A stretch of 64,000 nucleotides of DNA. Origin: a bacterium (lineage in GTDB: Bacteria; Actinomycetota; Thermoleophilia; Solirubrobacterales; Solirubrobacteraceae). Shown here piece after piece: positions 4,105 through 49,166 of the stretch; position 1 is the stretch's first letter, and each line of letters begins with the position of its first letter. The position numbers were made by a program, and so were the translations under genes. The DNA is taken from assembly GCA_021323635.1 (NCBI GenBank), contig JAJPKQ010000022.1, positions 62,001 through 126,000 on the forward strand, read 5' to 3'. The notes beneath the pieces were generated by a model that was not told the DNA's origin, ran no database searches, and saw nothing but the letters and a program-made list of their open reading frames with translations.

Positions 4105-5550
4105 ATGATCGACGAGCGCGGCGAGCTCGAACGGGTGCGCGCCGATCTCGCACGCGAGGCCGAGCGGCTCGCGCGCCCGCGCATCTGGAGCGACACGATC
4201 GGCGCGATTGCAAAGTCCGCATGGCTGGGGGTGCGCTCGGTCGCTCCCGACGCCCCGCTGCTGCTGCTGCGGGCCGCCAACGGTGCAAGCGGGGTCCGCC
4301 TTGGCCCGAGCGACCTTGACGACGGCGCGCTGAGGGCGGCTGAGCGGCTGGTGCGGCGCGGCGGCCCTGCATACATCAAGCTCGGGCAGTTCATCGCCAG
4401 CGCCGATGGGATGCTCCCTGGCGACTGGGTCAGAGCCTTCGCTTGGTGCCGCGATGACGCGCCGCGCATCCCCTTCAGCCGCATCCGCTCGATACTCCGG
4501 CGCGAGGTCGGCCTCGCGGCCTTTGCGGAGATCGACACAGTGCCGCTGGCGGCCGGATCGATCGCGCAGGTGCACCGCGCGGTGCTGCAGGACGGTCGGA
4601 CGGTCGCCGTGAAGGTTCGCCGCCCGGGCGTGGCGGGGAGGCTGCGGTCGGAGATCGGCGCGCTGGCGCTAGCTGCGGCGGCGGCGGAGCGATTTCACAG
4701 CGGCCTTGCCGCCGCGAACCTGCCGGGGTTTGTGGAGCTCTTCGCCCAGCTCGCGCTGGAGGAGAGCGATCTGCGCCTGGAGGCGCTGAACCTGCGCGAC
4801 TGCGCAAGCGCCTTTGACGCCTGCGGGTTGGATTACGTCAAGGTCCCGGAGCCTCATCAGGAGCTCGTCAGCGAGCGGGTGCTTGTGACCGACTACATCG
4901 ACGGGGTCCCCTACGACCGTGCCGCAGAGCAGCTCGCCGACCCGGCGATCGGCGAGCGGCTGCTCTCGCTTGCCATCGGCGGCGTGCTGCGCTCCGCGCT
5001 GCTCCACGGCCTCTTTCATGGTGATCTGCACGCCGGGAACGTGCTGGTCCGCAGCGATGGCACCTTCGGTCTGGTGGACTTCGGCATCTGCGGTCGCTTC
5101 ACGCCGCAGCAGCGCAGCGCGATGGCCGGGTACCTGCTCGGGTTCGCACAGCGCGACGCGCTCGCGCAGGTCGGAGCGCTCCAGAGCTTCGGCGCGATCC
5201 AGAGCCCGAGCCGGCGCCTGCTCGATGAGCTGAGCGGCGAGCTGGAGCGCATCGAGCAGCGCAGCGGCGGCGACATCACCTTCGAGCGTCTTGGCGAGAG
5301 CGTCTCCGCGCAGCTCTCGGTGCTCGCGCGCAATGGCTTCAGAATGCCCAAGGAGCTGGTGCTCTTCTTCAAGAACCTCCTGTACCTCTCGAGCTTCGCG
5401 GCCGCGCTCGCACCCGATGCCGACCTCTTCCGCGCAATCGAGCGCGCGCTTGGCGGGATCGACCTGCCGCGTGAAGGCGGGCTCGCAGCGCTGATCGAGA
5501 GATCTGAGCCTGATCGTGCGCGCGGACAGGGAAGCCTGCCGGTTGCATAG
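4105..5550 (+). CDS. ABC1/UbiB-family atypical kinase
   Basis: 481 aa from ATG 4105. Diagnostic ABC1 motifs in order: the K-x-G-Q helix (YIKLGQFIAS; KLGQ 92-95), the alanine-rich nucleotide loop AAGSIAQVH (149-157), the VAVKV lysine (170), HGDLHAGN (306-313) and the DFG metal site (326-328). Members of this family act on quinone or isoprenoid lipid metabolism, mostly as ATPases. Start chosen by GGGAGG at 4091-4096; a GTG at 3985 overlapping the MerR stop would add 40 low-complexity residues and would imply translational coupling. Its 3' end overlaps the next gene by 35 nt. No ubiquinone genes are adjacent; a menaquinone-type methyltransferase lies 29 kb away. Confidence 0.85.
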   Translation: MIDERGELERVRADLAREAERLARPRIWSDTIGAIAKSAWLGVRSVAPDAPLLLLRAANGASGVRLGPSDLDDGALRAAERLVRRGGPAYIKLGQFIASADGMLPGDWVRAFAWCRDDAPRIPFSRIRSILRREVGLAAFAEIDTVPLAAGSIAQVHRAVLQDGRTVAVKVRRPGVAGRLRSEIGALALAAAAAERFHSGLAAANLPGFVELFAQLALEESDLRLEALNLRDCASAFDACGLDYVKVPEPHQELVSERVLVTDYIDGVPYDRAAEQLADPAIGERLLSLAIGGVLRSALLHGLFHGDLHAGNVLVRSDGTFGLVDFGICGRFTPQQRSAMAGYLLGFAQRDALAQVGALQSFGAIQSPSRRLLDELSGELERIEQRSGGDITFERLGESVSAQLSVLARNGFRMPKELVLFFKNLLYLSSFAAALAPDADLFRAIERALGGIDLPREGGLAALIERSEPDRARGQGSLPVA

Positions 5551-7144
5551 ACGCCTGAGGGGGGCGCGCGGCGCCCTGCGCAGCGGCTGGGAGGCGCTCA
5601 TAACGCATCCGTGGCTTGTCGGCGACAGCCAGACACCGGGAGGCGAGGTGTTCCGGCGCGCTCGGATCACGACTCTCCTGGCCGTGATCGCGGCAAATGC
5701 GGTGGGGGCGCTGGTCGTGCTCGTCTTCGCCGTCTGGGCGCTGCCAAAGCCCGCGCGCGTCATCAACCTCACGGTGACCCTCGAGAACGTCGCGCTCGCA
5801 GCCGTCTATCTGCCGCTCGCCCTCGCGCTCGGCACGCTGTGGGGAAGCAGGCGGCTGGCGCTCGGGCGCCACGGCGGACGCAGTTGGCTCGTGGCCGAGC
5901 GAGCGCCTGATGCGCAGGAGCGTAGGCTCGCCCTGCGCGGCCCCCTGGTGGTGATGGAGGCGCAGTCAGCGCTGTGGGGATTGGCTGTGGCCCTGTTCGT
6001 GGCGCTCGACGCGCGCTTCTCGTGGCTGCTGGCGCTCGGAGTGGGGATGACGATCGCGCTCGGCGGGCTCACGACCTCGGCAGCCGCGTATCTGCTCAGC
6101 GAGATGTCCTTGCGCCCTGTCGTCTCACGAGCGCTTGCCTCCCACGTGCCTGAGCGCCGGGCGGCGCCGGGCGTGGCAGCCCGCTGGCTGCTGGCCTGGA
6201 CGCTCGGTACAGCAGTGCCGATCGTCGGCCTGCTGCTGGTCGCGATCGTCGCGACCAGCCCGGTGCCGATCTCAAAGCAGACGCTGATCGTGACGGTGCT
6301 CGCGCTCTGCGCAATCGCGCTGGTGTTCGGGGCGCTGGTGATGCTGTTGGCCGCATACCTGACGGTCCATCCGATCGGCGCGCTGCGGCGCGCGCTCGCA
6401 CGCGTCCACCGCGGCGAGTTGGATGCGGAGATCGCCGTCTGGGACGCAACCGAGATCGGCCTGCTGCAGGCGGGGTTCAACGAAATGGTGGCAGGGCTTC
6501 GCGAACGTGAGCGGCTGCGTGACCTGTTTGGGCGGCAGGTCGGCGAGGAGGTCGCCCGTCAGGCGCTCGCCGAAGGGGTGCAGCTGGGGGGCGAGCGGCG
6601 CGAGCTGGCGATCCTCTTTGTCGATGTCGCCGGCTCGACCGAGCTTGCCGCCTCGCAGCCTCCGGAGGTGGTGGTCGCGACGCTGAACCGCTTCTTTGCC
6701 GAGGTCGTCGATGTCGTGAGCCTGCATTCAGGCTGGATCGACAAGTTTCCGGGCGATGCGGCGATGGCTGTCTTTGGCGCACCGCTCGCGCTGCAGCGCC
6801 CGGCAGAGCACGCGCTGCGGGCCGCGCGCGAGCTGAGGGAGCGCCTGCGCGAGCGCGTGCCTGATCTCGACGCCGGAATCGGGGTTGCGGCCGGGGAGGC
6901 GGTCGCCGGTCATGTGGGCAGCGAGCATCGCTTCGAGTACACCGTGATCGGCGATCCCGTGAACGAGGCATCCCGTCTCACCGATCTGGCCAAGCAGCGC
7001 GCGGAGCGTCTGCTCGCCTCCAGCGCGGCGGTCGCAGGAGCAGGCGCCGATGAGGCGACGCATTGGCAAATCGGCGAGGAGGTGCTGCTGCGCGGCCGTC
7101 CGCTGGCGACCCGCATCGCCTGGCCGCTTGACGGAGCAGCGTGA
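5516..7144 (+). CDS. Membrane adenylate cyclase, class III, with HAMP domain
   Basis: 542 aa. About six membrane helices (between residues 50 and 283), a HAMP linker (about 284-335), then a class III cyclase domain (about 360-510). Residues for ATP cyclisation are visible: metal aspartates D370 (FVDVAGST) and D414 (FPGDAAMAVFG), adenine-selecting K410 and D480, and transition-state N483 and R487 (GDPVNEASRL). This predicts cAMP, not cGMP. The layout matches mycobacterial Rv1318c-Rv1320c/Rv3645-type enzymes. It is third in the MerR-ABC1-cyclase array, starting at a GTG inside the kinase gene. A double GGDEF gene converges on it with 3 bp between stops. Confidence 0.88.
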   Translation: MRADREACRLHRRLRGARGALRSGWEALITHPWLVGDSQTPGGEVFRRARITTLLAVIAANAVGALVVLVFAVWALPKPARVINLTVTLENVALAAVYLPLALALGTLWGSRRLALGRHGGRSWLVAERAPDAQERRLALRGPLVVMEAQSALWGLAVALFVALDARFSWLLALGVGMTIALGGLTTSAAAYLLSEMSLRPVVSRALASHVPERRAAPGVAARWLLAWTLGTAVPIVGLLLVAIVATSPVPISKQTLIVTVLALCAIALVFGALVMLLAAYLTVHPIGALRRALARVHRGELDAEIAVWDATEIGLLQAGFNEMVAGLRERERLRDLFGRQVGEEVARQALAEGVQLGGERRELAILFVDVAGSTELAASQPPEVVVATLNRFFAEVVDVVSLHSGWIDKFPGDAAMAVFGAPLALQRPAEHALRAARELRERLRERVPDLDAGIGVAAGEAVAGHVGSEHRFEYTVIGDPVNEASRLTDLAKQRAERLLASSAAVAGAGADEATHWQIGEEVLLRGRPLATRIAWPLDGAA

Positions 7145-7147
7145 CGC

Positions 7148-9358
7148 TCAGGCCGCCAGCGACGCCGGTGATTCCGGCGTGCTCTGCGCCACGCGCACGC
7201 AGTTGCGCCCGGCGCCCTTGGCGGCGTAGAGCGCAGCGTCGGCTGCGGCAAAAAGGCGCGAGTAGTCGAAGGCCTCGCCGGGCCGGCACACCGCCACGCC
7301 GATTGAGAGCGTCACCCTGGCATCGCAGATCGGCGCTGCGGCGACCGCGCTGCGCAGGCGCTCGGCGAGAAGCGCTGCGTTCTCCTCGATCGCGGGGATG
7401 AGGGCGACAAACTCGTCGCCGCCGACCCGGCAGACGGTGTCAAAGGTGCGCAGCTGCTCGCGGATGCGCTCCGCCGCCCCCCGCAGCACGGCGTCGCCGG
7501 CAGCGTGTCCGTGCCTGTCGTTGACCTCCTTGAGCTGGTCAAGGTCACAGACGATCACGCCGATCGCACCCGCTCGGCTCCCCGCATGCTCAAGCTCCCC
7601 TACCCGCGCGGCGAGCGCCGAGCGCGTGAGCATCCCGGTCAGGCGATCGACGACGCTCACCTCGAGATAGCTGAGCGTGGAGCGACCGGCGGTGCAGCCG
7701 ATCGCTGCGACCATGATCATGATCGCGACGTCAAGCGCGAGGATTCCGGGCGCGCTCGCGGTCTCGTGCGGGCTGTAGAGGGTCGCGACAACGATCATCA
7801 GCACGCCCGCAATGGCGGCGCCGGCGGCGACGATACGGGGCGGGAAGGCGGGGCTGAAGGCGCCGACGAGGATCGTAAGCGCGGGCAGCGCGACGATCAT
7901 CGGGTCGCCGGCGTGAGGGCGGGCGAGCACCCAGCCGCCCGCTGCGGCAAGCTCGCAGAACAGCCACGCCGCCGCAAGCCAGCGCTCCGGGCGACGTACG
8001 CGCGGAAGGATCGCGATGACCGAGAAGAGGGTCACGGCGCCGATCGTTGGGGTCAGCAGCATCCGCCAGCCGTAGATGCGCGCGGCGACGACAAGCGCCC
8101 CGAACACGCAGGGATAGATCATGATCAGCCCGAGCAGCTGGCCGCGCTGGGCATAGCTGACAAGCTGGCGGCGCTCCTCAGGGCTGCTGAGGATCCAGCC
8201 TCCGTCCTCGCAGCTACGCGCTTGGGCGCCGGCGCTGCGCGGCGCTGCAGTCGTCCCGCCTGCGGAGGCGAAAGCCGAGGATGTGGCGGCGCGGCGCTCG
8301 CCTTGCGGGAGCGCGCCGACCGGGTGCAGCTGCTGCTCTAAGACGACGCGGTCGCGCCCTGCGTTCTTGGCCGCATAGAGGGCGCGGTCGGCGGCGGCGA
8401 GCGTTGCGTCGAAGTCAAAGCCGCTTGCCTGCGAGACGGCGACGCCGATCGAGGCTGTGACCTCGATCCCGTCGACGGGAGAGCCGCGCAGCGCCTGCCA
8501 GAGCTTCTCGGCCAGGGTGCGTGTCTCCTCCCTGTCCGCTCCTGGGCAGAGAGCCACGAACTCCTCGCCGCCGAGGCGGTAGAGCTGCGCCCGCGCTGCG
8601 AGAGCCGCGGTCATGCGCGTGGCGATGGCGGCCAGCACGGCATCGCCGCGGGAGTGCCCATATCCGTCGTTGATGTCCTTGAAGTGGTCGATGTCGAGGA
8701 GCAGCACGCCGACCGGCTCGCGACGCTCGCCGCTCGTGCTGGCCTGATGGCGCAGCTCCTCGACGCGCGCCATCAGCGCGGTGCGGTTGAGCGCGTTGGT
8801 GAGATCGTCGAGATGGGCGCAGCGGCGAGCCGAGAGGTCCTTGCGGCGAGCGAGCCCCGCGGTCAGCGCAGTGATGAGGACCGTGGAGATCGGGTAGAGC
8901 ACGTACGGCGGGAAGCGCTCGACCGCGTGACCGTCAAGCAGGAGCGCGAGCCCGAGGAGCGCAAGCACGGTGAGGAGCGTCGCGAGCGCAGCGTCCCGGC
9001 CCGGCAGGAGGATGCCGAGGAAGACGACGGCGTAAGCGAAGATCGCAAAGAGATAGAGCCGTGGCCCGCTTGCGGCGGCAAGCCCGGCTGACATCAGCGC
9101 GATGCAGCCAAGCCAGTTGAGCCAGATGACCGCCGCCGGTCTTGACCCGCGCTGCAGCAGCGTGCAGGAGAGCTCAAACAGCGCGACGACGCCGGCGAGC
9201 GCGAGCAGCGGGCCCGGGCCGAAGCTGGGAAGCGCGACGACGCCGGCGGCGATCGCGATCACGCTGACCCGCCTTGAGGCCGGCCGCAGCCGCTGAGCGA
9301 GATCTACGATCCGCCCGCGCTCTCCTTCCTGCACCAGCCTCGCCTCGGCAGTGCTCAT
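7148..9358 (-). CDS. Tandem double membrane-GGDEF protein
   Basis: 736 aa with two complete copies of one architecture: a helical start, about six membrane helices, then a GGDEF domain. Unit 1 spans about 10-345 with GGEEF at 263-267 and metal site LDIDHFKDIND. Unit 2 spans about 388-725 with GGDEF at 646-650 and metal site CDLDQLKEVND. Both look able to make c-di-GMP. The inhibitory RxxD site is intact before unit 2 (RTFD) but absent before unit 1 (RAQL). Start at ATG 9358 is supported by alignment with the paralogue at 46764-49166 (ERGR-hydrophobic-DL-RRLRP near both N-termini). No EAL or HD-GYP partner is present. Confidence 0.88.
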   Translation of the reverse strand: MSTAEARLVQEGERGRIVDLAQRLRPASRRVSVIAIAAGVVALPSFGPGPLLALAGVVALFELSCTLLQRGSRPAAVIWLNWLGCIALMSAGLAAASGPRLYLFAIFAYAVVFLGILLPGRDAALATLLTVLALLGLALLLDGHAVERFPPYVLYPISTVLITALTAGLARRKDLSARRCAHLDDLTNALNRTALMARVEELRHQASTSGERREPVGVLLLDIDHFKDINDGYGHSRGDAVLAAIATRMTAALAARAQLYRLGGEEFVALCPGADREETRTLAEKLWQALRGSPVDGIEVTASIGVAVSQASGFDFDATLAAADRALYAAKNAGRDRVVLEQQLHPVGALPQGERRAATSSAFASAGGTTAAPRSAGAQARSCEDGGWILSSPEERRQLVSYAQRGQLLGLIMIYPCVFGALVVAARIYGWRMLLTPTIGAVTLFSVIAILPRVRRPERWLAAAWLFCELAAAGGWVLARPHAGDPMIVALPALTILVGAFSPAFPPRIVAAGAAIAGVLMIVVATLYSPHETASAPGILALDVAIMIMVAAIGCTAGRSTLSYLEVSVVDRLTGMLTRSALAARVGELEHAGSRAGAIGVIVCDLDQLKEVNDRHGHAAGDAVLRGAAERIREQLRTFDTVCRVGGDEFVALIPAIEENAALLAERLRSAVAAAPICDARVTLSIGVAVCRPGEAFDYSRLFAAADAALYAAKGAGRNCVRVAQSTPESPASLAA

Positions 9359-9750
9359 CCTGAATGTAATCGGCGCGGCGCGGGCAATCTTTACGGCGCA
9401 CGCACCTTTAGGCGTCATGTCCAGCAGCCGTGAGACCTCACGCTGCAGCCGCTCCATGTGTCTCTATTTGCGATGCCAACCAGATGGTTGAGTGGCTCCG
9501 CCCCGTTGACACGTGCGTCCTGGCCTCGCTTCGCCACCAAACCTCCGAGCCGAGCAGAGGTAGCCACGCAGACGAAATAGCCTCCAAGGGACCCGAGGCA
9601 GCTCACAGAGCCCACCCGAACCTTCGGGCTGATGCTCGATACCGACACCCAGCGACTAGCCTTGAGCTGGACCAACAAGCAAACTCAGGCGGCAAGCGTC
9701 CCGCTCGAACCATCATGCACAATGGCGAGGGTTCGAACACGACGAGCGAG
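9359..9750. other. Gene-free stretch of about 390 bp
   Basis: No convincing gene. It must hold the upstream region of the double GGDEF gene and the downstream region of tRNA-Ala. A TACATT hexamer at 9363-9368 on the minus strand is too close (4 nt) to the ATG at 9358 to be a confident promoter. Short ORFs here lack codon bias, and one reads through the tRNA. Confidence 0.5.
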
Positions 9751-9823
9751 TGGAGCTAGCCGGACTCGAACCGGCGACCTCCTGGGTGCGATCCAGGCGC
9801 TCTTCCAGCTGAGCTATAGCCCC
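9751..9823 (-). tRNA. tRNA-Ala (CGC)
   Basis: A full cloverleaf on the minus strand, 73 nt: acceptor GGGGCTA pairing with TAGCTCC, D-arm GCTCAGCTGGAAGAGC, anticodon stem CCTGG/CCAGG with loop ATCGCAC (anticodon CGC), and T-arm GCCGGTTCGAGTCCGGC. CCA is not encoded. Confidence 0.95.
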
Positions 9824-10681: not shown

Positions 10682-10754
10682 GGGGCCATAGCTCAGCTGG
10701 CAGAGCGCCTGCTTTGCAAGCAGGAGGTCGGCGGTTCGAGCCCGCCTGGCTCCA
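10682..10754 (+). tRNA. tRNA-Ala (TGC)
   Basis: A 73-nt cloverleaf: acceptor GGGGCCA/TGGCTCC, D-arm GCTCAGCTGGCAGAGC, anticodon stem CCTGC/GCAGG with loop TTTGCAA (anticodon TGC), and T-arm GGCGGTTCGAGCCCGCC. CCA is not encoded. A remnant of a P-type ATPase gene lies directly downstream on the other strand. Confidence 0.95.
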
Positions 10755-10819
10755 CTCGAGGTGTCTTGCCCGAACCGCGGCATCGCTGTTGATGGATTGC
10801 GTAGGACGCTCCCAGCGCC

Positions 10820-15529: not shown

Positions 15530-18500
15530 ATGAGCTCTCGCTCCCTGCTGCGCCGAGCGCTGCCGGCGCGCGTCTCCGCCACTCTCACCCTCCTCGCCGC
15601 GCTCGCGACCCTGCAGGCGACGGTCGGCGCCACGCCGGCGCTTGCGGAAGGAAGCTTTGAAGCGATCGCGCCGACCAATGTCGGCATCTCCTCGGCGACG
15701 CTGCGCGCCAGGGGCGAAGGGTGGCAGGAAGGGGAATACTGCGAGTTTATCTACCGTGGCGAAGAACCGATCACCGGAAAACGCAGCGAAGAATGGTACC
15801 CCTCCTCGCCGCAGTGGGGACCTGTCCAGCCCTGCAACGGCAACTCCCAGCACCCGATCGAAGTCAAAGTCGGCACCCTCGAACCCGGCTGGCGCTACAC
15901 ATACACGGTCGTCCGCTGCTACGAAATGGTGGAAGAAGGCAGCGAGAAGGTCTGCCGCCCCGACTACGCTTACCCATACGGCTACAGCCGCATCTCCGAA
16001 TGCACGCCCAACTGGGAAAAAGGCACCTACCCCTGTCCGACCTTCACCACCAACCTGCCGCGCGGTGAGACGCAGCCGGCGAGCGCGGTGCTGGGGACCA
16101 GCGCGACGCTGAGCGCGAAGCTGCAGATCGAAGATCTCGCGCACAAACCCGAGTCGGGCGACGTCGAATACTACTTCGAATACTCGACCGACTCGTCGCT
16201 CTCCTCGGCGACGCGCACACCCGCGCAGCGCCTGCCCGAAAACGAGGCCGAATCGGAACCGACGGTGAGCGCGCACATCGAAGGCCTCGTCCCCGCCACG
16301 ACCTACTACTACCGAATTGTCGTCCTTGCTCCAGAGCTGAACGTCAACACCCCCCAGCGCGGCGCTCCGCTCTCCTTAAAGACCGGCGGCTACGCCCTCA
16401 CGCTGCCGGCCACCGACACGCTTGAAAACTCGGCGACGCTCAACGGCGAAGTCGCGGTCGGCGACAATCAGCTCACCTACTCCTGGGTGATCAACGCCAC
16501 CGGGCAGACCAATGCCGGCATCCTCGTCCCGGAACGCGTCGTCGCGGGCGGCACGCTCGCACCTGGCGTCCAGCAGCGCGTCAGTGCCCAGATCAGCGGC
16601 CTGTCCGCCGGAACCACCTACTACGCCCAGCTTGTGACCAGCGAAGGCGCCGTCCATGGCGAAGTCATCTCCTTCTCCACCTCCAGCCCCTGCGCCCATG
16701 AAAGCTATCGCGACCACGCGATCGCGGGCACAGGCTTCGTCGTCTCCGGCTGCTTCTCGCAGTCGGGCCCGGCCTCGGAACCAACTTTCACCGGCTACGG
16801 GACCGTGCAGATCAACGGGCTTGAATTCGCCGGCAACGCGACGAGCTCGCTTGTCATCAATACCCACGAACACACGCTGGGCGCGGCGGCGGGCCACCTG
16901 CAGCTGGGCACTCTGCTGCTCGCGCTCGCAGCCACCTGGCACTACAGCGACAGCACCAGCGGCGGCGAAACGATCTCGACGATCGAAGTCGCGGCCGACC
17001 CGACGACAAGCTTCTTCGGCTTCGCGATGGCCGGCGAAATTGCAATCGCTGCCCACGCGGATGGCCGCAGCCGGGTTGTGGCTGAGGTGCTCGGGACGCC
17101 CGCGATCTTCGGCAGGGCAACGGCAAAGGGCGAAGCGTGGGTAAGCGAGAGCGGCGCGCTCCAGTCGCTGCAAGTGAAGATCGGCGAAGCGGAATTCGGG
17201 CCGCTCGAACTGCCCGCGATCGAACTGAGCTACGAAGGCGCGAACAACGAATGGGTGGGCACCGCCAACCTCAACTTCCCGATGGCGAAGTTCGGCATGA
17301 CCGTGACAGTGAGGATCAAGAACGGCCAGCTCAACGGGCTCGGCGGCAGCTACAGCGGCCCCGGACTCACCCTGCCAGGCGGCATCGAGATCACCAGCAT
17401 CGGCTTCAACTCGGTATTCAACCCGCTGCAGCTGGAAGGCTCGATGGGCCTGGGCTGGGGGCCGGAGGTGGGCAACGCGACGCTCTTCGGCGGCAACCTC
17501 TCCTTCTATATCGGCTTCCGCGCCAACCAGACGCTCACCAACGTGCCAGGTGTGGAAGACGGCACGGTGCTCCATGAAGTGCCGCTGACGCTGAAGCTGC
17601 ACGGGTCGCTGAACCTGCTCGGCTTCATCAAGCTCGCGGAAGCGCAGGTCGCCTACTACGAGCTGCCGAGCCCCTTCATAACCATCTTCGCATCGCTCTC
17701 CGAACCGCTGGCTGTGCACTGCGGTGGCGGCGAACTGGGGGTCTTCCCGACGCTGCGGCTGCTCGGCGACGGCTACGGCAGCGAATTCAACCTGATCGGC
17801 GAAGGCCGCCTCGCGGTGGCGCTCTGCGGGGCGAAGCTCAAAGTCGCCGGCGCGCAGATTGCGATCTCAAACCGCGGTGCTGTCTTCTGCGGCAGCTTCC
17901 TGGAAAACAGCGTCGGTGTCGGCTTCCACTGGCGCGGTCTGCCTAGCAACATCGAACAGCTGACCGAAGACTTCCAGCTCTATGGCTCCGGCTGCGGTCT
18001 TGAAGAATACGTCCAGGTGCTCGGCTTGCCCAAGGAAGACATCGCGTCGACCGCGGCGGCCCGGCGCTCGCGAGCGACCGCCGGGCGTCCCCTGATCCTC
18101 CCGCCGGGCCTGCCCTATGAGGTGATCAAGGTCAGGGGCGCGGGCGCGCCGCCGCTTGTCGCAATCAGCGGACCACACGGCTTCAGCGCCCGCTCGCTTG
18201 CCGACGGCCAGGTCGCCGCCAGGCGCGCCAGCTACCTTGTCATCCCTGACAAGGCAAACCAGACGACCTACATCGAGCTCACCCGTCCTGCGGCGGGCGC
18301 CTACCGCCTGACGCTGCTGCCCGGGTCGGCGAAGGTGCGCTCGGTGGCCGCGGCGCGGGCTCTGCCCGAGCCGCGACTGCGCGCCCGCCTGCGCGGTCGC
18401 GGCACGCGGCGCCTGCTGCGCTGGCATGCCAGCAGGCGCTCCGGGCAGATCATCAGGTTCGTTGAAATCGGTGGCGTGGGCGTCCACGCGCTGCTGAGCA

Positions 18501-18985
18501 CCTCCGCCAGCAGCGGCGCGCGTCGCATCCGTCCCCTCAGCGGGCTGGCGGGCAAACGCTCGCTGCTCGCCGAGATCTACGAGCATGGCGTGCTTGCGCG
18601 CGTGGTGCACATCGCGGCCTACAGCGGGCCGATCCTGCCGCCGCCCGCGCAACCAGGAGGCCTGCGGGCAACCCGCTCAGGCAGCTCGCTGAGTATCACG
18701 TGGAGACGCGCCGCGCGCGCGGCGCGCTACCGCATCGAGCTCGTCTTCCCCAACCACGCGGTGCTCTCGCTCAAGAGCGAGAGCAACCGCGCGACGGTCG
18801 CGGACGTGCCTGCCAGCGGCACGATCACGGTGTCGGTGAGCGGCATCGACGCGCTGCAGCGGGCGGGCAGGAGCGCGACGGTCGTGGTCGGCGCGCAGCC
18901 GAGCGCAAAGCCGCCCGCCCACAGGGTCCAGCGACACAGAGGTCACCGGCACCGCGCAAAACGGAGTCGACATCGCCGGCGCTGA
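15530..18985 (+). CDS. Large secreted protein with fibronectin-III-like repeats
   Basis: 1151 aa. A signal peptide covers about residues 1-39 (hydrophobic LTLLAALATLQ, cleavage near ALA-EG). Three fibronectin-III-like repeats follow (about 45-375), each with SATL...A...G near its start and TTYYYRIVV/TTYYAQLV near its end. The central part (about 390-830) is glycine-rich beta sequence with no recognised family. A further fibronectin-like repeat lies near 1045-1125, then a very basic tail (HRGHRHRAKRSRHRRR). No sortase motif or C-terminal anchor is seen. AAAGGA precedes the ATG. By my reading, glutamate is about 56 GAA to 11 GAG up to 18050, then about 1 to 7. Likely a surface or matrix protein; function unknown. 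Confidence 0.8.
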   Translation: MSSRSLLRRALPARVSATLTLLAALATLQATVGATPALAEGSFEAIAPTNVGISSATLRARGEGWQEGEYCEFIYRGEEPITGKRSEEWYPSSPQWGPVQPCNGNSQHPIEVKVGTLEPGWRYTYTVVRCYEMVEEGSEKVCRPDYAYPYGYSRISECTPNWEKGTYPCPTFTTNLPRGETQPASAVLGTSATLSAKLQIEDLAHKPESGDVEYYFEYSTDSSLSSATRTPAQRLPENEAESEPTVSAHIEGLVPATTYYYRIVVLAPELNVNTPQRGAPLSLKTGGYALTLPATDTLENSATLNGEVAVGDNQLTYSWVINATGQTNAGILVPERVVAGGTLAPGVQQRVSAQISGLSAGTTYYAQLVTSEGAVHGEVISFSTSSPCAHESYRDHAIAGTGFVVSGCFSQSGPASEPTFTGYGTVQINGLEFAGNATSSLVINTHEHTLGAAAGHLQLGTLLLALAATWHYSDSTSGGETISTIEVAADPTTSFFGFAMAGEIAIAAHADGRSRVVAEVLGTPAIFGRATAKGEAWVSESGALQSLQVKIGEAEFGPLELPAIELSYEGANNEWVGTANLNFPMAKFGMTVTVRIKNGQLNGLGGSYSGPGLTLPGGIEITSIGFNSVFNPLQLEGSMGLGWGPEVGNATLFGGNLSFYIGFRANQTLTNVPGVEDGTVLHEVPLTLKLHGSLNLLGFIKLAEAQVAYYELPSPFITIFASLSEPLAVHCGGGELGVFPTLRLLGDGYGSEFNLIGEGRLAVALCGAKLKVAGAQIAISNRGAVFCGSFLENSVGVGFHWRGLPSNIEQLTEDFQLYGSGCGLEEYVQVLGLPKEDIASTAAARRSRATAGRPLILPPGLPYEVIKVRGAGAPPLVAISGPHGFSARSLADGQVAARRASYLVIPDKANQTTYIELTRPAAGAYRLTLLPGSAKVRSVAAARALPEPRLRARLRGRGTRRLLRWHASRRSGQIIRFVEIGGVGVHALLSTSASSGARRIRPLSGLAGKRSLLAEIYEHGVLARVVHIAAYSGPILPPPAQPGGLRATRSGSSLSITWRRAARAARYRIELVFPNHAVLSLKSESNRATVADVPASGTITVSVSGIDALQRAGRSATVVVGAQPSAKPPAHRVQRHRGHRHRAKRSRHRRR

Positions 18986-19042
18986 GGATGGGCGATGCGG
19001 TGAGCTCCCACGCGATGAACGCTGCTGTCCCAGCCGGTCCGC

Positions 19043-23023: not shown

Positions 23024-24127
23024 GTGGCGGCTCAAGCGCACGACGGAACGTGGCTCTGTCCGACGGTCGACGACCGGCGGCATCTCCTGGACATGGAGCG
23101 CCGCCTGCCGCCTGTGCGCGCGATCACGTTCGGATCGGTCTGCCTCGCCCTGCTGATCTCGATGCCGTGGCTTGGGTGGTGGCCGTTGCCGATCCTTGCC
23201 GGTGTCGTCTTCTGCGTGTTTATGACCGACCGGCACCTGGCCAGCTACCGACAGCCGGAGTACAGGGTCCTGATCGTGTGGCTGCTCTCGGTCGCCGCGA
23301 TCGGCTACGCCTCCCTTCAGACCGAAGGGCTGCGGAGCCCGCTGACGCCGTGGTTTGCGATCCCGGCGGTTGCGCTCGCGGTGCGGTTCCGGCTGCGTGG
23401 GGTGATCACAGGCATTGCTCTCACCGCTGCGGTGCTCGCGACAATGACGATCTCGACTCCCGTCGCCAGGCCCGTCCATCTGCCCACCAGCGCCTGGCTT
23501 GCCGCAGACATCACGCTGGTCATCTCAACGGTCGGGTACACGATGACGCTGCTCTACGTCGACCTGCAGAACCGCGACCGCGCGCTGGTCGACCCTCTGA
23601 CAGGGATGCTCAACCGCCATGCGCTGCAGCTGCGACTCACCGAGCTGGCCCAGCAGGCCCGCTTCAACTCCACGCCGATCTCCTTTGTCGTCGGCGACGT
23701 CGATCACTTCAAGCAGATCAACGACACCTACGGCCATGAGTTGGGAGACCGCGCTCTGGAAAGCGTCGGCGCGACGCTGCGCGCCCACCTGCGAGCTTAT
23801 GATCTCGCATACCGACTGGGCGGCGAGGAGTTTCTGATCGTCCTGCCCGGCACGGACCGCAAGGGCGCGCTGTTCGTGGCTGAGCGCCTGCGCAGCGCGG
23901 TCGCCGCGATTCCCTCCTTCCCCACCACCCTCACCATGTCCTTCGGCGTCGGCTCAGCCCGCGGCGATCGCTTCGACTACCGCGATCTGCTAAGGCGTAC
24001 CGATGAGGCGCTCTACTGCGCCAAGGCAAGCGGCCGCAACTGTGTGATCAGCGAGGAGGACGCGGCGCTGCTCGCGCGCGTCCACCACCAGCAGGAGGTC
24101 GCAACGCAGTCGGCGAGCACCAGCTGA
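23024..24127 (+). CDS. Single-unit membrane-GGDEF diguanylate cyclase
   Basis: About 367 aa. The N-terminus (DDRRHLLDMERRLPPVR) matches the two tandem GGDEF proteins of this window, followed by about six membrane helices, a short coil and a GGDEF domain with GGEEF, metal site VGDVDHFKQIND and an intact inhibitory RAYD (RxxD). It should make c-di-GMP from two GTP at the membrane and be product-inhibited. The start is uncertain: GTG 23024 keeps the N-terminal segment shared with the paralogues; ATG 23093 is the alternative. The frame is open back to 22727, but that part lies inside the previous gene. Confidence 0.8.
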   Translation: MAAQAHDGTWLCPTVDDRRHLLDMERRLPPVRAITFGSVCLALLISMPWLGWWPLPILAGVVFCVFMTDRHLASYRQPEYRVLIVWLLSVAAIGYASLQTEGLRSPLTPWFAIPAVALAVRFRLRGVITGIALTAAVLATMTISTPVARPVHLPTSAWLAADITLVISTVGYTMTLLYVDLQNRDRALVDPLTGMLNRHALQLRLTELAQQARFNSTPISFVVGDVDHFKQINDTYGHELGDRALESVGATLRAHLRAYDLAYRLGGEEFLIVLPGTDRKGALFVAERLRSAVAAIPSFPTTLTMSFGVGSARGDRFDYRDLLRRTDEALYCAKASGRNCVISEEDAALLARVHHQQEVATQSASTS

Positions 24128-35299: not shown

Positions 35300-35478
35300 C
35301 GGTCGCTGCTGCTCGGCGCGGACGGCACGCTTGCCGCTGATGCACAGCCTACGCGCTGCGTCTGAGCGCAGGCGGCGCCGGCGCGCTGAAGTCGCGCGCA
35401 GCGGGGGCGCCCCGCACCATCGCGCACGGTGTCCAGCGGCGCTAAAGGTTCTCGCAGGAAGGTGCCGATGAGCCCCTC

Positions 35479-37734
35479 GTGAACCAACCTTCCGGCGGTT
35501 TCAGGGGCCTGTCCTCGACCTTGCGCGGCGGCAGCGTGCCGCGGCTGAAAGTCGCTCGCGCCAGCGCTATCTGCATGCTCGCGGCGACCCTTGGCCTGTG
35601 TGCCGCCGCACCCGCCTCCGCGGAAGTAGTGCACGAAGGTGTGCTGCCGGCCGTCGGCCTGCAGCCGCGGACGGCCAATGTGCTGCGCGACGGCAACACG
35701 CTGGAAGCGATTACCTTCTCCAACAAGTCCAAGAACCCGGTCGTCCACAGCGCGACGGTCTACGCGATCTACTGGGACCCCGAGGGCTTCTACCACGGCG
35801 ACTGGCAGGCGCTGATCAACTCCTTCCTGAAGAACCTCGCCACCACCAGCAGCGCCCAGCCGACGGCGACCGTGCTCGGCGTCGACGCCCTCTACAGCGA
35901 CGCGAGCGGCAGGCCCGCGGCGCGATCGATCGTCTATGGCGGGGCTTATGTCGACTCAAACCCCTACCCGGCCTCCGAATGCGTCGACCCCGCGCCGCTG
36001 GCGCTCGCCGGTGAACTGTTTGTGCCCGGGCTGGGTCCTGAAAAGTGCTTCAGCGACGCCCAGCTGCGCGCCCAGCTTGGCGCCTTTGTCAAGGAACACG
36101 CGCTGCCGACGGGGCTCGAACACATCTACGTCCTGCTGACGCCACCGGGCGTGACGGTCTGTCTCGATGCCGGCGGCGCAAGCGGACGCTGCTCCGACTA
36201 CTACCGCGGCAGCGAAGCCGAAGTCAAGGCACAGACCGGCGGCAAGCAGAACCTGGTGCCAAAGATCGAAGAAGAAGAAAAGCTGGTCGGCGAAGGCAAG
36301 GAAACCGAAAGCGAACGCCTTCACAGCTACCGCAACAGCTTCTGCAGCTACCACTCCTACCTTGAAGCGGGCGGCAGCCCGGTGCTCTATGCGGTCGTCC
36401 CCTGGACCGCGGGCGGCACCGGCGACTACCACCTGCCCGAACGCGACCAGATGCAGGCCTACGACTGCCAGATGGGCAACTTCAACCCCGCCAACACCGA
36501 AAAGGTCGAGGCCGCCGAAAAGAGCGGCGCCGACCAGGAGCCAAATCAGGAAGGGCTTAGCCCTGACGGCGCCTACGACCACGGGCTGGCGGACATCATC
36601 GTCACCCAGATCGGCAGCGAGCTGCAGAACACGATCACCAACCCGCTCCTGAATGCGTGGCAGGGCAGCGCGGGAGGCGAACTGACCGACCAGTGCCGCA
36701 ACTTCTTTGCGGGCGCCGCGGGCCAGTACGCGGCCTCCAACCAGCAGACCGAAGCGGGTACGGTCGCAAACCAGGCGCTCGGAGCGCGCCGCTATGCGCT
36801 CAACGACGGCTTTGACCTGGCCGCGCTGAAGGTTCCCTACCCGGGGGTGCCCTGCCTCACCAGCGTGAGCACGGCCGCAAGCTTTGTCGCCCCCGCGGTC
36901 GCCAACGTGGGCGAAGCGGTAGCCTTCGACGGCGACTCCTCGCTGATGAGCCTCGACTGGTCCGGGTACAGCCTGGGCGAAGTCGGATCGTTCCCTGAAT
37001 TCAGCTGGAGCTTCGGCGACGGCAGCCCCGTGGTGAAGGGCTTCGGACCGCCCTCGCCCGAATGCGAAGTGCCGCTGCAGCCGCACTGCGCGGACTCGGT
37101 CTTCCACACCTTCACCGCAGCGGGCGTCTACTTCGTCACGCTGACGATCAAGGACCGCGGGGGCAACGAATCCTCGATTACGGAAGAAATCAAGATCGAG
37201 GGCCCACCGAGCACGACGTCGACCGGTGGCGGCACGGGGTCGACCACTACGACCACGACGACCACGACCAGCAAGGCGGGTGCCGGCAGCGGCTCATCGT
37301 CGACGCTGCCGGCCCCGAGCGCACACGCGGCAGCGGTGTCAGGCTCGCTGCGCGCGGCGCTCCGTCACGGCCTTGAGATCCGCTATGAAGTCAGCGAGCA
37401 GGTCGCCGGCGAAGTCCAGGTGCTGATGAACGCCAAGCTTGCCCACCGGCTGCACATTCGCGGGCGCCGTGCGCTGGGGCTGCCGAAGGGACAGCCGAGC
37501 GAGATCGTGATCGGGCGCGCTCTGGTGGTCACGCGCAAGGGTGGCAGCGGGCGCGTGCGGGTTCGCTTCAACCGCACGGTCATTCGCGCGCTCAGGCGCC
37601 TGCAGCGCGTGCGGCTGATGTTGCACATGGTGGTCAGAGACGCAGAACGGGCGCATCCGAAGACGGCGGCTGTGACGGGCGTGGTTGTGCTCAAGAGCGG
37701 CACGGCCGCCGGCAGCAGCCGCCGCAAGAGCTGA
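35479..37734 (+). CDS. Secreted EXORDIUM-like protein with PKD domain
   Basis: 751 aa from GTG 35479. A signal peptide ends near 48 (AAPASA-EV). Residues 70-440 resemble the EXORDIUM/phosphate-induced family: VVHSATVYAIYWDPEGF, IYVLLTPPGVTVC, then ITNPLLNAWQGSAGGELTDQC. Where plant relatives have an HE pair before TNPLxNAW, this protein has QIGSELQNTITNP, so a metal-site histidine looks lost. A PKD domain spans about 465-575 (FSWSFGDGSP, HTFTAAGVYFVTLTIKD). A threonine-rich linker (about 580-605) and a basic C-terminal domain follow. Glutamate codons are mostly GAA, unlike neighbours. Probably extracellular; ligand unknown. Confidence 0.75.
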   Translation: MNQPSGGFRGLSSTLRGGSVPRLKVARASAICMLAATLGLCAAAPASAEVVHEGVLPAVGLQPRTANVLRDGNTLEAITFSNKSKNPVVHSATVYAIYWDPEGFYHGDWQALINSFLKNLATTSSAQPTATVLGVDALYSDASGRPAARSIVYGGAYVDSNPYPASECVDPAPLALAGELFVPGLGPEKCFSDAQLRAQLGAFVKEHALPTGLEHIYVLLTPPGVTVCLDAGGASGRCSDYYRGSEAEVKAQTGGKQNLVPKIEEEEKLVGEGKETESERLHSYRNSFCSYHSYLEAGGSPVLYAVVPWTAGGTGDYHLPERDQMQAYDCQMGNFNPANTEKVEAAEKSGADQEPNQEGLSPDGAYDHGLADIIVTQIGSELQNTITNPLLNAWQGSAGGELTDQCRNFFAGAAGQYAASNQQTEAGTVANQALGARRYALNDGFDLAALKVPYPGVPCLTSVSTAASFVAPAVANVGEAVAFDGDSSLMSLDWSGYSLGEVGSFPEFSWSFGDGSPVVKGFGPPSPECEVPLQPHCADSVFHTFTAAGVYFVTLTIKDRGGNESSITEEIKIEGPPSTTSTGGGTGSTTTTTTTTTSKAGAGSGSSSTLPAPSAHAAAVSGSLRAALRHGLEIRYEVSEQVAGEVQVLMNAKLAHRLHIRGRRALGLPKGQPSEIVIGRALVVTRKGGSGRVRVRFNRTVIRALRRLQRVRLMLHMVVRDAERAHPKTAAVTGVVVLKSGTAAGSSRRKS

Positions 37735-46763: not shown

Positions 46764-49166
46764 CTATGTGCCGACCGCGACGCCGGGGGCGATCGGCGCG
46801 ATCTTGAGCGCGCTTGACTCGAGCAGCTCGGGGCCGCCGGTGCTTCTGGCGACCTGCCCGCCGGCGCGCCGGCGGGCCGAGCAGGCGCAGTTGCCGCCGT
46901 GGTGCTTTGCCTCATAGAGGGCCGCATCCGCGCGCCGGAAGACCGCCTCGTAGGCGAAGACTTCGCCGGGCGCGCTTGCCGCGAGGCCGACGGAGATGGT
47001 GACGGGCACGCCCGCGATCGGGCGCTCTGCGATGCTCGCGCAGACGCGCGCCGCGACGCCTTCGGCCTGCTCCCAGTCGACATCGTCGAGCAGGATCACG
47101 AACTCCTCGCCGCCGATGCGGTAGGCGGACTCGAAGGCGCGCAGGGAGGAGCGCAGTCGCGCTGCCACCTCGCGCAGGACCGCGTCGCCGACCGCGTGCC
47201 CGTGGCTGTCGTTGATCACCTTGAAATTGTCGATGTCCGCGACAAGCAGCGCCACCGGGGCGCTTGCGCCGACGGAGCGGTGGGCAAGCTCCGCGACGCG
47301 GGTGGCAAGCGCGGCGCGGTTGAAGAGGCCGGTCAGCTGGTCGATGATGGCAAGGTCGCGGTACTCGATCGTCGAGCGCCCGATCGCGGCGCCGAGCATC
47401 CCGATGACGATCGTCGTCGCGACCAGGAAGGCGAGGATCGCGGGCGCCTGCGCAACGAGCGCCGGCGCCTCGATGAAGCCGACGGCGAACATGATCGCGA
47501 CGGTGTATGCGACGCCGATCGCCACGCCGCGCGGCGGGAAGACCGCTGAGGAGCCCACAAGCAGCATCAGCAGCAGCGGGGCGGCAAAGACCATCTGATG
47601 GTTGGCGATCAGCCCGGAGGCCATGAAGCCGCCCTGGAAGACCATCCATGCCAGCCCAAGCGCGAATTCAGGGCGGCGCAGACGCTCGAGGACATGCTCG
47701 GTTGCGATGTAGACGAGCGTGCCGATCGCGGGCGGGATCAGGATCTGCCAGCCGTAGTCCACCGCGCTTGCGCCCCCCACGACGAAGCCGAGCACGAATG
47801 CGGGCTTGGCACGTTCGCGCAGGCGAAGATTGAGCTGCAGCAGCTGGCGCCTGGCGAGATCGTCGCGGATCAGCCAGTTGCCCGTGCTCGCGTGCTCGCG
47901 CTCATTCCAGCGCGCCCAGGCGTCGATCAGCTCGCCGCCGGCCTCAGCGCCGCGCTCATCCTCAACGCTTACGGCCGCAAGCGCTTGCTCCGGGGCACTA
48001 CGATGGCCGTGCTCGCGCTCGGATCGCGTGAGCTGGCCCTGATCGAGGCTGGCGTCCTCGCCGGATGCTCGCCCCGCTGCCTCGCGTGTGCCTGAGAGGT
48101 GGCTGGCGCGATCGGCCTCCGCGGCGCTCAGCGGTCGCACGGAGCCCGTGAGCGAGTGCACGCGCACGCCGTCGCCACCGTTGCGCTTGACCTCGTAGAG
48201 GGCGGCATCGGCGCGGCCGAAGAGCGAGCTGAAGTCAAAGCCCGCGCGCGCAGCGCTTGCGGCGACGCCAAGGGAGATCGCCACCTTGATGTCGGCGATC
48301 GGCTGCGCGTCGACGGCGCGGCGGATGCGCTCGGCGACCGCTGCGGCCTGGTGCTCGTCCGCGTCGGAGAGGAAGACCACGAACTCCTCGCCACCGAGGC
48401 GGTAGGCGCCCGCGCCACCGGGGAGGCAGGCGCTCATGCGTGCCGCCACCTCGCGCAGGACGGCGTCGCCGACCGCGTGGCCGTGCGTGTCGTTGATCGC
48501 CTTGAAGCGGTCTGGGTCGCCGACGATCAGGGCGACCGGGCGGCCGGTGATCGCGGATTGGTATTCGAGCTCGGCAGCGCGTGCGCGCAGCGCCATGCGG
48601 TTTGGCAGCCTGGTCAGCTGGTCGAGCGTCGCCACGCCGCGTGTGCTCACGTCGAGGCTGGCGACGACCATCGCGACGAAGCCGGCCGAGATCATCACGG
48701 CAAGCGGGTAGAGCAGATAGAAGGGATGCGCGAGGACGACCGCGCGATCGGCTGTGAAGGCAACGGCGATCATCAGCGCGGCGCTGTAGGCCATCGTGGC
48801 GATCGCCATCCGCACCGGGAAGACGATGCAGGCAAGTTGCAGTATCAGCATCAGCAGCGTGAGCAGGTACACGCGCGGCCCCTGAGCGATCGCGATGGCG
48901 GCCGCCAGGCCCGCCTGGGTGATCGCCACGCAGCCGATCAGCGCCAGCTCCGGGCGCCGGAAGCGCTCCAGCCGCCGCTGGATCACGAAGAAGACGATCA
49001 TCCCCGGCAGCGGCGGCAGCGCCGCCAGCCAGCCGAAGGTCGGACCGCCGATCAGCGCGGCGATGCCAAGCAGGACCGACCCGCGCACCTCGGCCGGTCG
49101 CAGCCGGCGGCTGAGGTCGAGCAGGCGTCCACGCTCGGAGTCATTGCGACAGGTCAGGATGTCCAC
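46764..49166 (-). CDS. Second tandem double membrane-GGDEF protein
   Basis: 800 aa, paralogous to the 736-aa protein at 7148-9358 and with the same plan. Unit 1: about six membrane helices (24-172) and GGEEF at 258-262 with GDPDRFKAIND. A charged linker follows (about 340-430). Unit 2: about six helices (455-600) and GGEEF at 685-689 with ADIDNFKVIND. Unit 1 lacks an RxxD inhibitory site (CLPGGAGAY precedes RLGGEEF); unit 2 has RAFE, an aspartate-to-glutamate change. GTG start at 49166. It converges on the AI-2E gene with 30 bp between stops. Confidence 0.87.
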   Translation of the reverse strand: MDILTCRNDSERGRLLDLSRRLRPAEVRGSVLLGIAALIGGPTFGWLAALPPLPGMIVFFVIQRRLERFRRPELALIGCVAITQAGLAAAIAIAQGPRVYLLTLLMLILQLACIVFPVRMAIATMAYSAALMIAVAFTADRAVVLAHPFYLLYPLAVMISAGFVAMVVASLDVSTRGVATLDQLTRLPNRMALRARAAELEYQSAITGRPVALIVGDPDRFKAINDTHGHAVGDAVLREVAARMSACLPGGAGAYRLGGEEFVVFLSDADEHQAAAVAERIRRAVDAQPIADIKVAISLGVAASAARAGFDFSSLFGRADAALYEVKRNGGDGVRVHSLTGSVRPLSAAEADRASHLSGTREAAGRASGEDASLDQGQLTRSEREHGHRSAPEQALAAVSVEDERGAEAGGELIDAWARWNEREHASTGNWLIRDDLARRQLLQLNLRLRERAKPAFVLGFVVGGASAVDYGWQILIPPAIGTLVYIATEHVLERLRRPEFALGLAWMVFQGGFMASGLIANHQMVFAAPLLLMLLVGSSAVFPPRGVAIGVAYTVAIMFAVGFIEAPALVAQAPAILAFLVATTIVIGMLGAAIGRSTIEYRDLAIIDQLTGLFNRAALATRVAELAHRSVGASAPVALLVADIDNFKVINDSHGHAVGDAVLREVAARLRSSLRAFESAYRIGGEEFVILLDDVDWEQAEGVAARVCASIAERPIAGVPVTISVGLAASAPGEVFAYEAVFRRADAALYEAKHHGGNCACSARRRAGGQVARSTGGPELLESSALKIAPIAPGVAVGT

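Follow-up and report, generated by a model that had tools for sequence, protein, structure and literature searches.

How a single polypeptide came to carry two complete units of a membrane domain and a GGDEF domain, and whether the two units act as one enzyme, is the question raised by a gene in the 64,000-nucleotide stretch of DNA analyzed here (the window). The gene product, protein A, had been read from its sequence as one chain with two membrane-GGDEF units, and we examined its anatomy, its relatives, the origin of the doubling and the ways in which its two halves differ.

Domain architecture of protein A

The frame of protein A is uninterrupted and encodes 736 residues from an ATG at 9358; an in-frame ATG farther upstream, at 9457, would give 769 residues. 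Pfam detected two full GGDEF domains (total E 4e-72), which scored 241.7 bits against PF00990 in two stretches (curated cut-off 23.8), and beyond these two domains there was no other credible Pfam match in the protein. The parts of the gene, all on the reverse strand, are as follows.

7148..9358 (-): double-unit diguanylate cyclase A, 736 aa, a single open frame with two PF00990 domains
9281..9325 (-): unit 1 juxtamembrane motif, GERGRIVDLAQRLRP, conserved in 26 doubles
8840..9280 (-): unit 1 six-helix membrane domain without a Pfam name, from AlphaFold helices and hydropathy
8348..8818 (-): unit 1 GGDEF domain, PF00990 residues 181-337, pLDDT about 90
8588..8599 (-): unit 1 inhibitory-site position, degenerate, with AARA instead of RxxD
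8558..8572 (-): unit 1 active-site motif GGEEF
8186..8332 (-): flexible inter-unit linker of about 50 residues, low pLDDT at 343-417
7652..8182 (-): unit 2 six-helix membrane domain, from AlphaFold helices 393-569 and homology to the unit 1 membrane domain
7187..7660 (-): unit 2 GGDEF domain, the second PF00990/TIGR00254 stretch
7439..7450 (-): unit 2 inhibitory site RTFD, an intact RxxD
7409..7423 (-): unit 2 active-site motif GGDEF

Protein A thus consists of two complete units, each with six membrane helices and a GGDEF domain that has every catalytic residue tested; the two-unit plan that had been read from the sequence is borne out by the Pfam matches, the AlphaFold helices and the homology of the membrane regions. 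The AlphaFold model has helices at residues 4-46, 49-69, 74-95, 101-116, 120-141 and 150-173 before the first GGDEF domain and at 393-429, 431-449, 457-479, 486-504, 507-527 and 537-569 before the second. The pLDDT was about 90 in both GGDEF domains and about 50-70 in the membrane helices, and was low in the linker (343-417), which is predicted to be disordered. For the dimer pictured by the sequence-only reading, the prediction supports the folding of the GGDEF domains, but the position of one half relative to the other was not predicted with confidence (pTM 0.42); the underlying alignment, drawn from the window's own proteins and the loci of a genome-contig scan, had 16 rows with three known family sequences, two of them doubles.

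Profile comparison of the membrane regions aligned the first half with the second over all 175 columns (probability 99.9%, E 7e-32), and the membrane regions of first and second halves each matched those of single-unit proteins (E 8e-36 and 5e-38, respectively). Because both membrane regions are homologous over all columns, the whole unit was repeated and not the catalytic domain alone. The N-terminal motif that the earlier reading saw as shared among proteins of the window is confirmed and is found before the second unit as well: the juxtamembrane consensus is DDxERxRxLDxxRRLRP before unit 1, where R14 and R16 are invariant and E13 is present in at least 90% of the 26 doubles, and WLVxDxxERxHxxD before unit 2. 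The label MASE-like, given to the membrane part in that reading, is loose, as no match to the Pfam membrane-sensor models was found in 26 family members with E values up to 0.5, so this part is best described as an unnamed sensor or anchor domain; a lack of profile matches does not by itself prove that it is unrelated to the MASE type. Across the family the linker between the units varies from 40 to 101 residues, and its sequence is without conservation.

Relatives in the window and across the class

Two other proteins of the window belong to the same family.

46764..49166 (-): second double-unit diguanylate cyclase B, 800 aa, two GGDEF domains, E 4e-78 (Pfam)
48381..48395 (-): B unit 1 active-site motif GGEEF, with PGGA at the inhibitory-site position
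47100..47114 (-): B unit 2 active-site motif GGEEF, with RAFE at the inhibitory-site position
23024..24127 (+): single-unit relative C, 367 aa, one GGDEF domain, E 2e-41 (Pfam)

The second double and the single-unit relative noted earlier at these positions accordingly have two and one GGDEF domains. Protein C has an intact inhibitory site (RAYD), the active-site motif GGEEF and six predicted helices. Besides at least four single-unit relatives, the source genome encodes five two-unit proteins, and three of these are on the contig of the window. The third two-unit gene on this contig (G000:C42:134066-136336; L004/L008) lies about 8 kb past the end of the window, and three of the five two-unit genes fall within 70 kb. 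A further two-unit gene (G000:C28:32755-34959, reverse strand; L002) and a single-unit relative (35382-36266, forward strand) are divergent neighbors about 420 bases apart.

Whole-genome searches of the order (232 genomes), the class (399 genomes) and the evenly sampled phylum (396 genomes) extended the search for double fusions. They recovered 31 distinct homologous two-unit genes in 15 genomes of six genera and three families of one class, and 30 of the 31 have an unbroken frame; the five of the source genome are included in this count. Four of the genomes belong to the genus of the window; the other genera are two in its family, one in a second family of the order and two in another family of the class. 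No two-unit member was detected outside the class in the phylum sample, in which the two best candidates per genome were scored and where the census is thin. The spread is patchy, since most genomes in the genus of the window gave single-unit relatives only or no strong match. A profile search of genome contigs with the family alignment returned 80 loci from diverse bacteria, none with two membrane-GGDEF units, and is a weak control because it matched generic GGDEF motifs. The broken gene (L200; G040:C2:54500-57800) is interrupted by a frameshift close to where its first GGDEF domain begins; it is an ortholog of L028, with 75-79% identity, and the frameshift is either a sequencing error or early decay. 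In one genome, two two-unit genes lie in direct tandem on the same strand (G006:C11:14414-16630 and 16796-19006; L063 and L030).

Origin of the doubling

A maximum-likelihood tree was built from 91 units, comprising 28 first halves, 29 second halves and 34 singles. First halves, second halves and singles formed three separate groups, with ultrafast bootstrap/SH-aLRT values of 99/89, 99/95 and 100/100, respectively, and these groups were recovered in 100%, 97% and 100% of 200 bootstrap trees. Protein C (L011_S) was placed in the single-unit clade. Many groupings seen among first halves are mirrored by the second halves of those proteins. Eighteen more units placed without labels went where their type predicted: all three first halves beside the N group, all three second halves beside the C group and all 12 singles with the singles. 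One of these placements is not an independent check, because the tree already contained the second half of L200 as row L033, and the exact places of L072 and L164, which come from a more distant family and have long branches, are unsure.

Because all first halves, all second halves and all singles form three separate groups, the doubling most likely arose once and was then kept, as judged from these sequences; the tree lends no support to separate duplications in several lineages. None of the 46 single-unit relatives fell in the first-half or the second-half group, and no family member was seen with one half lost or with its halves as separate genes. One duplication or fusion of an ancestral single unit, with six helices joined directly to a GGDEF domain, would have preceded the spread of the family into at least three bacterial families, and the fused state would have been maintained since.

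Differences between the two halves

The catalytic residues are kept in both halves. In PleD numbering, which was assigned from motif spacing, D327, K332, N335, D344, R366, G368, G369, E371 and K442, among them the metal-binding Asp and the guanine-contact Asn and Asp, are invariant in the 28 first and 29 second halves, and position 370 is E or D. The motif GG[DE]EF is present in all of these halves except one second half, which has GGEEL (L003). R446 is replaced by Gly in both halves of L003, L004 and L005, the subclade of protein B, and the flanks of this Gly differ between the halves, so that copying from one half to the other is no easy explanation. Estimates of dN/dS from the closest ortholog pairs, which are approximate since codon use at 70% GC depresses dS, were 0.14 and 0.13 for the first and second halves of L062/L069, 0.21 and 0.16 for L068/L071, and 0.35 and 0.27 for L058/L061. 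These values indicate that both halves are under purifying selection. Together with the conservation of residues they rule out pseudogene decay of one half.

The asymmetry lies in the inhibitory site. In protein A an RxxD lies five residues before the GGDEF motif in unit 2 (RTFD) and is replaced in unit 1 (AARA). The same holds for most of the family: R359, the Arg of RxxD, is retained by 1 of 28 first halves, against 25 of 29 second halves and 33 of 34 singles, and with the added rows by 1 of 31, 27 of 31 and 45 of 46, respectively. Since the first halves form one clade, the loss of this Arg was probably a single ancestral event, and the 30 of 31 first halves that lack it are not independent observations. 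A rule of one inhibitory site per protein is not universal among the sequences compared; the four second halves without the Arg all belong to genus g36, where they make up four of six. The sole first half that keeps the inhibitory-site Arg (RATE) is that of L030.

The residue that contacts guanine, D344 in PleD, is kept in all 91 units. In GacA, a Hypr GGDEF enzyme that makes cGAMP, the corresponding position is S347, and an S347D variant has been studied (PMC6456294). The kept Asp disfavors cGAMP as the product and points to c-di-GMP instead.

Pairing of the two halves

A GGDEF domain binds a single GTP and needs a second, facing GGDEF domain to make c-di-GMP. In this family both faces could come from one chain, and the linker of 40-101 residues would be long enough for the chain to return from the first GGDEF domain to the membrane. 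Two complete half-sites in one chain with such a linker make pairing in cis the simplest reading. We regard it as probable, with some reserve, that the proteins are covalent pseudo-heterodimeric diguanylate cyclases with two sensors, two GTP half-sites and one feedback site, in which the halves pair in cis. The membrane domains, having diverged, could respond to separate signals or to different aspects of the same signal, and their inputs would be integrated by the GGDEF pair. Retention of both half-sites follows from this arrangement, as each product molecule would need both. The inhibitory site, where c-di-GMP is reported to inhibit by allostery or by locking both domains apart (PMC4215984), is kept in the second GGDEF domain only, which suggests that c-di-GMP feeds back through unit 2 alone. 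The built-in pseudo-heterodimer proposed by the sequence-only reading is supported by halves that are ancient, separately evolving, systematically different and both complete; the pairing in cis itself, like the product and sensing by the membrane domains, is what we infer.

The single frame could instead be an artefact, two adjacent genes having been joined by a frameshift or an assembly error. Such an error could start from single genes in tandem, and frame errors do occur in the set, where one ortholog (L200 of G040) is frameshift-split; the other members, from 14 genomes with the source genome among them, are nevertheless in one frame with the same order and a similar length and linker, and the first and second halves are separate ancient groups. 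The 31 homologues in 15 genomes exclude for all practical purposes the joining error that had been raised for protein A, and we give an artefact almost no weight. The long, variable and disordered linker would suit a gene from which two proteins are made, by linker cleavage or internal initiation, and assemble as a heterodimer of separate subunits. Its lack of the sequence conservation expected of a specific cleavage site, and the failure to find any member with its halves as separate genes, make this account very improbable.

It is possible, although rather unlikely, that two chains form a four-GGDEF assembly in which unit 1 pairs with unit 1 of the other chain and unit 2 with unit 2 (or crosswise), to give two catalytic centers of which one is feedback-inhibited. 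Ordinary GGDEF enzymes are homodimers (PMC7288161, PMC5635695), each half is catalytically complete and could homodimerize, the 40-101-residue linker compels neither arrangement, and an inhibitory site missing from one half only fits two separately regulated centers equally well. Single-unit descendants of either half would then be expected, whereas 0 of 46 single-unit relatives belong to either group, and the parallel replacement of R446 by Gly in the first and the second halves of one subclade suggests that the halves changed jointly. In yet another account, one unit would be a regulatory receptor that binds GTP or c-di-GMP and modulates the other, and the latter would homodimerize between chains. 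Receptor GGDEF domains usually lose the GGDEF motif. In other proteins, degenerate GGDEF domains do engage in regulatory contacts, and GGDEF domains of Escherichia coli are known to form heteromeric contacts (PMC5635695), but here none of the metal-, guanine- and phosphate-binding residues tested varies among the 28 first and 29 second halves, apart from R446 in three proteins, and neither half has undergone catalytic decay. A receptor unit thus seems improbable.

Comparison with known cyclases

In layout, the family resembles the membrane adenylyl cyclases (6TM-C1-6TM-C2), with six helices, a cyclase, a linker, six helices and a cyclase in one chain. Eukaryotic membrane adenylyl cyclases have been described as pseudoheterodimers derived from a monomeric bacterial progenitor that was duplicated and fused (PMC9552081), and their membrane domains have been proposed as lipid receptors (PMC11606603). 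The likeness extends to a single-unit ancestor that was duplicated or fused, halves that diverged, paralogues that expanded and membrane domains proposed as receptors. The catalytic domain is different, being PF00990 (GGDEF) and not the class III domain PF00211, and the expected product is c-di-GMP. Along with single GGDEF structures, a Foldseek search of the PDB with the model of protein A returned human adenylyl cyclase 5, at rank 5 and aligned over 951 columns, and mammalian adenylyl cyclase 8, aligned over 919 columns. The TM-scores of these alignments were low (0.20-0.24, rmsd 28), and what the alignments support is the domain order and the relation already known between the two cyclase folds, not a shared assembly. 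A repeat look (VIA-align 2) had GGDEF structures only among its 50 rows.

One of the two catalytic sites is degenerate in animal adenylyl cyclases, whereas in the present family both half-sites are intact, the asymmetry is in the feedback site and the origin is independent. Convergence with animal membrane adenylyl cyclases is the best reading of the layout. We lean, by a narrow preference, towards the fuller proposal that a six-helix sensor and cyclase were duplicated and fused for c-di-GMP independently of the animal enzymes, with two sensors and with feedback confined to one half.

Single-unit membrane diguanylate cyclases (AdrA/DgcC, MASE-GGDEF) likewise place one GGDEF domain immediately after a multi-helix membrane domain, and the singles of the present family are homologous to the doubles over both the membrane and the GGDEF parts. 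With one unit only, such enzymes need to form a homodimer, and the family's singles keep the Arg of RxxD in 45 of 46 cases. The phytochrome-linked homodimeric diguanylate cyclase IsPadC is functionally asymmetric (PMC6005682) and combines, as the cis pair proposed here would, a GGDEF pair with sensor halves in different states; its asymmetry is conformational, between identical chains, whereas that of the doubles is written into the sequence. GGDEF-EAL proteins also have several c-di-GMP domains per chain, but they join synthesis with breakdown, whereas the doubles join two catalytically complete synthesis domains, each with its own membrane sensor. Heteromeric GGDEF contacts between separate proteins are known (PMC5635695). 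In the literature searched, which covered few subscription papers so that an earlier mention is possible, no tandem, dual or duplicated GGDEF protein with a sensor for each half was found, and matches for tandem or dual GGDEF were GGDEF-EAL hybrids or conformational heterodimers.

If this proposal of a fused pseudo-heterodimer is correct, the family would be a natural experiment on why nucleotide cyclases fuse into such pairs, in which the single-unit type and the fused form share one genome. It could then be tested whether the membrane domains differ in input, whether a single inhibitory site suffices to shut down a GGDEF pair, and whether control by dimerization, a usual control point of diguanylate cyclases, is lost on covalent fusion. 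In bacterial c-di-GMP signaling there would also be a counterpart to animal adenylyl cyclases, whose membrane domains are now proposed to act as receptors.

Genomic context

The source genome encodes eight EAL domains and one PilZ domain, and c-di-GMP is therefore probably both degraded and read in this organism. One of its proteins (G000:C33:113296-115665; L016, L027) has two GGDEF domains, one of them weakly conserved, and one EAL domain, a plan other than that of the six-helix doubles. Gene A lies tail to tail with a gene on the forward strand (5516-7144 of the window) for a HAMP and class III nucleotide cyclase protein; the stop codons are three bases apart, so that two different kinds of second-messenger cyclase adjoin. 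Near the start of gene A are two tRNA-Ala genes (9750-9823 on the reverse strand and 10682-10755 on the forward strand), and spurious open reading frames with an RTRTGDLL-type peptide lie over or beside them.
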